Source of the DNA: Nitrospirota bacterium
GTDB lineage: Bacteria; Nitrospirota; Thermodesulfovibrionia; UBA6902; JAJYJJ01
NCBI GenBank assembly: GCA_021789595.1
Contig: JAJYJJ010000001.1
Span: forward strand, 124,001-188,000
Direction of reading: 5' to 3'
Length of the DNA: 64,000 nt
Shown here: positions 52,377 through 55,147 of the stretch, piece after piece
Layout of the letters: each line of letters begins with the position of its first letter
How positions within the stretch are numbered: the stretch's first letter is position 1
Program-made: the position numbers and the translations under genes
Notes under the pieces: generated by a model
Seen by the model: the letters and a program-made list of their open reading frames with translations, nothing else
The model's database searches: none
What the model was told of the DNA's origin: nothing

Positions 52377-53146
52377 AAAAGGGGACGGTTCTATTTTCTT
52401 GACAAAGCAGGTAAATTATGGTAAATTTTGATCATGCCGAGAGCATCAAGGATAGCACCAAAGGAGTATATCTATCATATATTAACGAGGGGAAATAATC
52501 GCCAGGATGTTTTTAAAGATGAAAAAGACTATAGGAGGTACATCGACATACTGCAGAGATACAAAGATAGATATACGTTTAAGCTGTATCATTATGTATT
52601 GATGAGGAACCATATCCATCTCGTCCTTGAGACGACTGAGAGGGGCGGAAGTCTCGCAGAGATTATGAAAGGAATAAACTTATCGTATGTTCAATACTAC
52701 AAGAACAAATACAAGCATACAGGACATTTCTGGCAGGACAGATATAAGAGCATCATAATATCAAAGGATGATTATCTGCTTGCCTGTGGAAGCTATGTTG
52801 AATTGAACCCTGTGAGGGCAAGGATAGTAGAAGATCCGAAAGAGTACAGATGGAGCAGCTATAATGCATACGCTTACGGAAAGAAGGATTTTGTTGTCGA
52901 TGAACATCCAATTTACAGAGAGTTATCTAAAGGCAAAACAGAGCGAAGAAAGAAATACAGGGAATTTGTAAAAGGAATGATTAAAGACAAGGGTGCCATG
53001 AAAGGTGAAATGAATAGAAGGGCGGTATATGGCAGTGAAGATTTTGTCAAAGAAGTGACAAGAGAATATAGAGTAGAAGCAATGATAAAGCCAAAAGGGA
53101 GGCCGAAGAAGAACGAGAAGGATGGTAAATAGAACCGTCCCCTTTT
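52377..53146 (+). mobile_element. REP-type tyrosine transposase element with perfect 20-bp ends
   Basis: AAAAGGGGACGGTTCTATTT at 52377-52396 and its exact reverse complement at 53127-53146 enclose a single transposase gene. The right repeat contains the gene's stop codon. The element is about 770 bp and appears intact. Elements with this end sequence occur in several anaerobic lineages. Confidence 0.85.
52434..53132 (+). CDS. REP-associated tyrosine transposase (Y1/HUH family)
   Basis: 232 residues. HUH motif in HYVLMRNHIHLVLET, catalytic Tyr within LSYVQYYKNKYKHTGHFWQD, and ELNPVRARIVEDPKEYRWSS, all RAYT hallmarks. Single-strand DNA transposase related to IS200/IS605 TnpA. The frame is open and uninterrupted. 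ATG chosen; a TTG two codons earlier is possible. Confidence 0.93.
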   Translation: MPRASRIAPKEYIYHILTRGNNRQDVFKDEKDYRRYIDILQRYKDRYTFKLYHYVLMRNHIHLVLETTERGGSLAEIMKGINLSYVQYYKNKYKHTGHFWQDRYKSIIISKDDYLLACGSYVELNPVRARIVEDPKEYRWSSYNAYAYGKKDFVVDEHPIYRELSKGKTERRKKYREFVKGMIKDKGAMKGEMNRRAVYGSEDFVKEVTREYRVEAMIKPKGRPKKNEKDGK

Positions 53147-53199: not shown

Positions 53200-53616
53200 A
53201 TGGCCACAGTTGAGATCTTGGATATTTCTGGCGATGTGGGTTTAGAGGTGCAGGCCGATGACCTTTATGACCTCTTTGAGGGGGTTGCATCAGGGATGTT
53301 TGGGCTTATTACCAATACTGCTGACATCCAGGAAAAAACAGAGCGACGGATCACAATTCACTCAAGGGACATAGACAACCTTGTTATTGCCTGGCTTAAT
53401 GAGCTTATCTTCATATTTGATACAGATGGTCTTGTGCCCAGGAGATATGAATTCTATGAACTGACAGAAGACTCAGTTGATGGAAGGATTGTAGGAGAGG
53501 AATTTAATCCTCAGATTCACGAAAGGAGGCTTCTCATAAAGGCGGCTACATATCACGACTTTGAGATAAAGCGGATAGGCTCGATGTGGTGGTTGAAGGT
53601 AATATTTGACATATAG
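53200..53616 (+). CDS. Archease
   Basis: 138 residues. [20 protein letters not shown] resembles the metal-binding N-terminus of archease (usually DHTADVG; the His is Ile here), [16 protein letters not shown] and [11 protein letters not shown] are conserved. Archease helps RtcB guanylylation and turnover. It ends 11 nt before rtcB, so both are one operon. Confidence 0.9.
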
Positions 53617-53627
53617 GGGGTGAGTAT

Positions 53628-55070
53628 ATGGTTGAAGGCATTAGAAGGATTGATGAGACCCACTGGGAGGTTCCCATCGGATATAAACCAGGCATGAGGG
53701 TTCCTGGGATAATCTATGTGGATGATATATTAATAAAGGATATTGAGAAGCAGTCCGTAGACCAGGTGGCAAATACAGCAACCCTGCCTGGCATAATCAG
53801 GGCATCCCTTGCCATGCCTGATATCCATACAGGTTATGGCTTTCCAATAGGCGGGGTTGCAGCCATGGATTTGAAGGAAGGTGTTGTATCCCCTGGTGGG
53901 GTTGGATATGACATAAATTGAGGGGTGAGACTCCTCAGGAGTAACCTTGCAAAGGATGAGGTTATTTCGAGGATAAGGGACCTCGTGGAGGCCCTGTATA
54001 TAGAAATTCCTTCAGGTGTTGGCTCAAAGGGCAAGATTCGCCTTGGGCATGAAGATGAGAGAAGACTTTTGTTAAAGGGCGCACACTGGGCTGTTGAACA
54101 GGGCTTTGGTGATGCATCTGATATTGAAAGAACAGAATCAGGTGGATGCATTGATGGTGCTGACCCATCACTGATAAGCAATAAGGCATACGAACGCGGA
54201 AGGGCACAGCAGGGGACATTGGGCTCTGGCAACCACTTCCTTGAAATCCAGTATGTTGATGAGATCTATGATGAAAAGGCAGCAAGGGCATTTGGCCTTT
54301 TCCTGGGGCAGATGACAGTGATGATACACACAGGTTCAAGGGGCTTTGGACATCAGGTCTGTACAGATTTCCTTGTTGTTATGGAAGAGGCAATTAGAAG
54401 GTACAATATCTCACTTCCTGACAGGGAGCTGGCCTGTGCACCTTACAGTTCACCTGAGGCAAAGGACTATCTTGGGGCCATGAGGGCCGCTGCAAATTAT
54501 GCGTGGGCAAACAGACAGTGCATTATGCACTGGGCGAGGGAGGCATTCTTTAAGATCCTGAATATCTCGCCAAATGCCCTTGGTATGAGCCTCATCTATG
54601 ATGTTGCCCACAACATAGCAAAGACAGAAGAACATACTGTTGATGACAAAAAAATGAAACTCATTGTCCATAGGAAAGGTGCGACAAGGGCATTCCCACC
54701 AGGCCATCCAGAGCTGCCAGCGGCTTACAGGGCTATAGGGCAGCCTGTCCTGATTCCAGGCGATATGGGAAGGGCATCCTATGTCCTTGTAGGCACAGAA
54801 AAGGCAATGGCTGAGAGCTTTGGCTCTACATGCCATGGTGCAGGAAGGGTTATGTCAAGGCATCAGGCAATAAGACAGGCAAAGGGCAGGTCAATAAGGA
54901 GGGAGCTTGAGGATAGGGGTATCTTAGTGCGTTCCGCAGGAAGAGAGACACTTGCAGAGGAGATGTCTGAGGCATACAAGGATATATCCAATGTAGTTGA
55001 TGTGGTTCACAGGGCAGGTATATCAAGGAAGGTGGCAAGACTAAGGCCAATGGGGGTTATAAAAGGCTGA
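53628..55070 (+). CDS. rtcB: RtcB tRNA/RNA ligase with in-frame UGA at residue 98 (predicted Sec)
   Basis: RNA 3'-phosphate/5'-OH ligase using GTP and Mn2+. The frame runs 97 codons to a TGA (53919-53921), then 382 more codons to a TAG-free end at 55070, total 480 residues. In RtcB the sequence GYDINCGVRLLR is near-invariant and the Cys binds both metals; here it reads GYDIN-UGA-GVRLLR. Numbering coincides with Pyrococcus RtcB Cys98. Other ligands are intact: D95, H203 (GSGNHFLE), H234 (HTGSRG), H328 (YDVAHN), and the guanylylated H403 in STCHGAGR. The best explanation is selenocysteine; a nonsense mutation is the alternative. Confidence 0.85.
53942..53964 (+). promoter_or_regulatory. Candidate bacterial SECIS hairpin in rtcB
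   Basis: Stem UAACCU/AGGUUA with an 11-nt apical loop UGCAAAGGAUG, beginning 21 nt after the UGA. Loop position (26 nt from UGA) and a G in the first two loop bases fit the bacterial SECIS model. A second small hairpin ACUCC-UCA-GGAGU (53930-53942) lies between. Prediction by eye only. Confidence 0.4.
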
Positions 55071-55080
55071 TATATTTGAA

Positions 55081-55147
55081 AATCCCTCCTAACCTCCCTT
55101 TGCCAAAGGGAGGAATTTCCCCTCTTTGGAAAAGAAAGGGGAGGGAG
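55081..55147. repeat. Palindromic repeat element downstream of rtcB
   Basis: AATCCCTCCTAACCTCCCTT then TGCCAAAGGGAGG forms a 9-bp stem (55093-55113), followed by a second CCCCTCTTT/AAAGGGGAGG arm. Same family as the in-frame copy at 43851-43887. It lies between convergent rtcB and usp and may terminate both. Confidence 0.7.

Follow-up and report, generated by a model that had tools for sequence, protein, structure and literature searches.

A candidate natural selenocysteine RNA ligase RtcB encoded with an in-frame UGA in Thermodesulfovibrionia

The archease-rtcB locus and its in-frame UGA

The window (the whole stretch of DNA that was analysed, 64,000 nucleotides) carries on its forward strand a gene for the RNA ligase RtcB that is interrupted by a single UGA codon and preceded by the gene for its activator archease. 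The features of this locus are as follows:

53200..53616, + strand: archease, RtcB activator, directly upstream of rtcB (PF01951 at 1e-33)
53628..55070, + strand: rtcB, RNA ligase RtcB, 480 residues with residue 98 encoded by UGA (open frame, PF01139 match and alignment to P. horikoshii RtcB)
53919..53921, + strand: in-frame UGA, codon 98, putatively read as selenocysteine (aligns with P. horikoshii Cys98; 47 TGA versus 76 TGC/TGT homologues)
53932..53973, + strand: SECIS-like hairpin within the rtcB coding sequence, starting 10 nt past the UGA codon (MFE -19.2 kcal/mol, z -4.7 versus synonymous-codon resampling)
55068..55070, + strand: terminal stop of rtcB, likewise TGA (from the sequence)

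A sequence-only reading of this DNA had described rtcB as open over 480 codons save for a TGA at codon 98, had placed this codon at the metal-binding Cys98 of Pyrococcus RtcB, and had noted that the remaining ligands are intact and that archease lies upstream, all of which our analysis bore out. The TGA at 53919-53921 is the single internal stop of the gene, at codon 98 of 480 in the context GYDIN-*-GVRLLR. With the TGA taken as one residue, the rtcB product matched the Pfam RtcB family (PF01139) at 1.4e-180 over profile positions 1-426 of 426, and an end-to-end alignment with P. horikoshii RtcB over 480 residues (8e-188) placed codon 98 on Cys98. D95, H203, H234, H328 and H403 are all kept, H328 and H403 of the window protein corresponding to His329 and the guanylylated His404 of P. 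horikoshii. Structurally, Cys98 of P. horikoshii RtcB is shared by the two Mn ions, one of which is also bound by His234 and His329 and the other by Asp95 and His203, and Ala at the matching Cys yields ligase-dead RtcB from P. aerophilum, E. coli and human (PMC10630183). P. horikoshii RtcB (PDB 4dwr, 1uc2, 4isj and others) and human RTCB thus resemble the window protein in the whole fold, the active site, the Asp, three His and guanylylated His ligands and the archease partner gene, but have a Cys codon where residue 98 is encoded by UGA here. At this position, where RtcB has Cys, relatives of the window gene have Cys or UGA only, and the window protein is, by its sequence, an RtcB with one substituted ligand.

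Of the 41 window ORFs with 250 aa or more, 16 end in TGA, as does rtcB itself, so that UGA has not been reassigned globally in this DNA, in agreement with the earlier remark that TGA is a stop in neighbouring genes and that a code change is unlikely. Among the UGA rtcB genes described below, the terminal stop is UGA in 20 of 47. A global code change was rejected on the grounds that UGA serves as an ordinary stop elsewhere.

In the flanks of the locus, the ORF at 52428-53132 (+ strand), directly upstream of archease, looks by its sequence like a REP-associated tyrosine transposase, and a palindrome (CCTCCCTTTGCCAAAGGGAGG, window positions 55101-55121) shortly past the end of rtcB resembles a terminator or belongs to a dispersed repeat.

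Alternation of UGA and Cys codons at position 98 and selection on the frame

Among the 123 distinct rtcB genes from the fetched loci, codon 98 was TGA in 47 and TGC or TGT in 76, with nothing else at this position; a distant RtcB paralogue (L232) was dropped from later codon-98 counts. A long rtcB match with one TGA was present in 45 of the 200 sampled Thermodesulfovibrionia genomes, and three genomes beyond these (G168, G169 and G181) carried the UGA motif in a fragmentary rtcB; together, the UGA-rtcB genomes (45 + 3) fall in 12 of the 21 family codes of Thermodesulfovibrionia that were sampled. When genomes were sampled for the UGA motif across the phylum Nitrospirota, GYDIN-TGA-G was found in 47 of 396 genomes, all within Thermodesulfovibrionia, and in 0 of the 229 sampled Nitrospirota genomes outside this class, while a control pattern (the motif read backward) gave no match in the same 396 genomes. 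The UGA motif was also sought in viral contigs and none was found there.

The sequence-only reading had suggested looking for Cys/UGA alternation in the rtcB genes of relatives, and such alternation is indeed seen: on a quick protein tree built with residue 98 masked, which does not itself give the direction of each change, UGA and Cys genes are interleaved, which requires a minimum of 16 changes, of which well-supported branches force at least 6. One genome (G135) carries both a UGA and a Cys rtcB (L200 and L201), and as the two genes sit in different parts of the tree, its Cys-rtcB contig may stem from DNA transfer or from contamination. Three genomes of one family code (G058, G060 and G070; f13) have rtcB frames of 964-971 aa with an insert of ~480 residues between residues 96 and 99, where other genes have the UGA codon; the insert is probably an intein (cf. 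NF038162, intein-containing RtcB).

The 382 codons past the TGA, said in the earlier reading to be open and conserved, are open and under strong purifying selection, with a dN/dS of 0.04-0.09 downstream of the UGA among UGA rtcB genes compared in their 12 closest pairs; rtcB is not decaying. Asp95, His203, His234 and His328 are present in 47 of 47 UGA proteins, and His403 in 46 of the 46 in which it is readable. A second, normal Cys-type rtcB, whose presence had been raised as a possible objection, was looked for in the window's genome and none was found.

These observations bear on whether UGA98 could be a true stop, with rtcB being a pseudogene, the product of an assembly error, or a gene split into 97- and 380-residue parts with translation restarting at the GTG at 53925. 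Such a GTG does lie two codons past the UGA in window rtcB, but the valine codon at this place is GTC, GTA or GTT in 36 of the 47 UGA genes and hence no restart start codon is conserved. Moreover, metal ligands lie on either side of the UGA in a genome with no further rtcB, the codons past it evolve under the constraint described above, and the recurrence of UGA at the identical codon in 47 distinct Thermodesulfovibrionia genes excludes chance. Sequencing error, pseudogene and split gene were rejected on the basis of the shared UGA, the dN/dS values and the lack of a conserved restart, and we regard a true stop at codon 98 as exceedingly improbable.

The downstream hairpin and the selenocysteine machinery

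Because the peptide after residue 98 is conserved, the Cys rtcB genes provide a natural control for RNA structure downstream of this codon. We folded a segment of 51 nt beginning 9 nt from the first base of the UGA and obtained a mean MFE of -23.2 kcal/mol in the UGA genes (first 44) versus -9.6 kcal/mol in 70 Cys genes. Upon resampling of synonymous codons according to each gene's own usage, the mean z was -3.67 for the UGA genes versus -0.49 for the Cys genes (44 versus 70), and the fold strength was significant (p <= 0.05) in 98% of the UGA genes versus 11% of the Cys genes. Three additional UGA genes fold likewise, and a strong hairpin is therefore present in 47 of 47, whereas Cys genes encoding the same peptide are mostly without one.

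The hairpin also leaves a trace in silent positions. In codons 103 (Leu) and 114 (Pro), the mostly silent third bases covary across the UGA genes (CTC with CCG, CTG with CCC, CTT with CCA) and form the top-ranked third-position pair of this set. Watson-Crick pairing between them was observed in 89% of UGA genes versus 46% expected by shuffling, and in 29% of Cys genes versus 21% expected, counts that are inflated by kinship of the sequences, although this applies equally to the Cys set.

Bacterial SECIS elements have a loop at a published distance of 16-37 nt from the UGA and follow a rule that calls for G at loop position 1 or 2 (PMC13188914). The apical loop of the rtcB hairpin starts roughly 27-30 nt past the UGA, inside this range, and all 47 UGA genes fall within the expected range. 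The G rule holds for window rtcB in a fold whose energy exceeds the MFE by 0.3 kcal/mol; across the UGA genes it holds for 19 of 47 in the MFE fold and 23 of 47 within 3 kcal/mol, compared to 14 of 76 and 24 of 76, respectively, for the Cys genes. As a classifier, the strict bSECIS rule was rejected for its poor separation of UGA from Cys genes, which fold strength against synonymous resampling separates well. Since only 19 to 23 of the 47 UGA genes have the loop G, "SECIS-like hairpin" is the best name for this structure, which is perhaps a variant SECIS class. In L019, L038, L051, L079 and L113, the hairpin still folds strongly with TGC or TGT at codon 98; these hairpins may be left over from a former Sec codon, as a recent change from Sec to Cys would predict.

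The genome of the window encodes selenocysteine machinery: selA (2.9e-186) and selB (6.9e-117) are adjacent on contig C27, a tRNA-Sec with a UCA anticodon lies on C4 and selD on C11, so that a search for selA, selB, selC and selD, proposed earlier as a check, recovered all four. The selD gene (L215, C11:110795-111715) itself contains one in-frame TGA (KVRAAG-U-AGKLG) at the position of the catalytic Cys or Sec of SelD enzymes. Judged by this codon, SelD of the window's genome is likely a selenoprotein too, and the in-frame UGA of selD is an internal control for the reading of rtcB. SelB was found in 46 of the 48 UGA-rtcB genomes, and the co-occurrence is real but weak evidence, being expected when 180 of the 200 sampled genomes of Thermodesulfovibrionia have SelB. 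Counting against the Sec reading, selA and selB were not found in the draft assemblies G119 and G130, each of which has a UGA rtcB with its hairpin intact; G119 keeps a tRNA-Sec and G130 is without any above the cut-off, reflecting either draft gaps or a recent loss of the machinery.

A second tRNA-Sec-like gene of the window's genome (L010, positions 1501-1595; C33:30449-30543, - strand) has the anticodon GCA and the discriminator U73, is not called by ARAGORN, and matches the selC* group of tRNA-Cys, described previously and known to occur in Nitrospirae. UGA98 would be read as Cys, giving a normal Cys-RtcB, if it were decoded by a selC*-like tRNA-Cys with a UCA anticodon. Some selC* tRNA-Cys do have this anticodon, with Nitrospirae among the sources (PMC7609411), and L010 shows tRNA-Cys features. 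However, L010 has GCA rather than UCA, the UCA tRNA carries G73 where tRNA-Cys has U73, the genome contains selA and selD, and selD has a UGA at its catalytic position, all of which makes decoding of UGA98 as Cys very unlikely.

Probable selenocysteine at codon 98 and its possible role

On the basis of the codon-98 pattern, the hairpin specific to UGA genes, the Sec gene set and the selection on the frame, the window RtcB is very probably a natural selenoprotein RNA ligase in which UGA98 is decoded as selenocysteine. The earlier proposal of UGA98 as a candidate selenocysteine codon is thus supported by the sel genes, the Cys/UGA alternation, the sole rtcB and the selection, to which the predicted hairpin is added. 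Selenocysteine appears to be present in the RtcB of many Thermodesulfovibrionia, replacing the active-site Cys that holds both metals. In the mechanism that we propose, SelB with GTP and Sec-tRNA(Sec) would bind the hairpin and insert Sec at UGA98, while the terminal UGA of rtcB would work as a stop. The Sec98 selenolate would take the place of the thiolate that ligands both Mn ions in P. horikoshii RtcB, His403 would be guanylylated with the assistance of archease as in Cys-RtcB, and 3'-phosphate or 2',3'-cyclic phosphate ends would be joined to 5'-OH RNA ends by the same chemistry as in the Cys enzyme.

Formate dehydrogenase (Mo/W) and [NiFeSe] hydrogenase, in which Sec is a Ni ligand, share with this proposal the UGA, a SECIS-like hairpin, SelABCD and Sec liganding a catalytic metal, but they are redox enzymes with Mo/W or Ni, whereas the dinuclear Mn-type site of RtcB serves a nucleotidyl transferase/RNA ligase. 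Sec as the Mo/W ligand of formate dehydrogenase has been described (PMC13188914). An engineered Sec98 P. horikoshii RtcB, produced in E. coli by means of the UTu system, likewise carries Sec at residue 98 of RtcB, but is artificial and was encoded with UAG and without a SECIS, unlike the natural combination of UGA, hairpin and SelB seen here; it self-cleaved at a nearby peptide bond (PMC4150793), which is a caution against the Sec98 reading. This engineered enzyme was the sole relevant case in 5.39 million open-access papers, where no natural Sec-RtcB was found under the names searched, in keeping with the statement of the sequence-only reading that it knew of no described selenoprotein RtcB. 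Likewise, RtcB, PF01139 and the word "ligase" are absent from a 2026 review listing 119 prokaryotic selenoprotein families. A natural selenocysteine RNA ligase RtcB is likely, though not certain, to be new.

As to why Sec would be used, Sec could help in that its oxidised form is more readily reduced. Oxidation is known to inactivate the RtcB Cys; the likeliest account is that a Se ligand is reduced back more easily, or that Se tunes metal binding and guanylylation, and we give this account about an even chance. The Cys of P. horikoshii RtcB was found oxidised in aerobically purified enzyme and that of human RTCB is inactivated by oxidation (PMC12263435, PMC10630183). The human enzyme, acting with PYROXD1, offers a close parallel in that the same catalytic cysteine (Cys122) is inactivated by oxidation, but there the Cys is retained and guarded by a flavoprotein, whereas here the residue itself would be swapped (PMC12263435). 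In this non-redox RNA ligase, Sec could bridge the two metals of the Mn-type site, keeping the site working or recoverable under oxidation as a selenium counterpart to the PYROXD1 with which animals guard the same weak point, a view for and against which we lean equally.

Alternatively, Sec could be inserted and yet be neutral, Sec98 and Cys98 being interchangeable and the UGA form being gained and lost by drift wherever Sec machinery persists for other proteins. This concerns the reason for Sec, and the weight that we give it is compatible with the selenoprotein reading itself. The frequent switching between the two forms on the tree (16 interchanges, with 6 or more on well-supported branches) speaks for neutrality, as do the common occurrence of Cys-form rtcB in SelB-bearing genomes and the relic-like hairpin kept by some Cys genes. 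Against it, every UGA gene has a strong hairpin with compensatory silent changes. UGA is decoded as Sec less efficiently than a Cys codon is decoded. Recoding of 30-40% is reported in one paper (PMC4513850). Upkeep of the hairpin in all UGA genes despite this less efficient decoding suggests that Sec98 brings some benefit to RtcB, and we consider neutrality possible but rather doubtful.

If the selenocysteine reading of UGA98 is true, an RNA-repair ligase would join a selenoproteome of mostly redox and metal/metalloid-linked proteins, and a nucleotidyl transferase would have selenium at its dinuclear catalytic metal site. The many natural Sec/Cys RtcB pairs would then provide a test of the role of Sec in an enzyme with an oxidation-sensitive Cys. 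As gene callers stop at codon 97, the UGA rtcB genes are likely truncated or split in databases.
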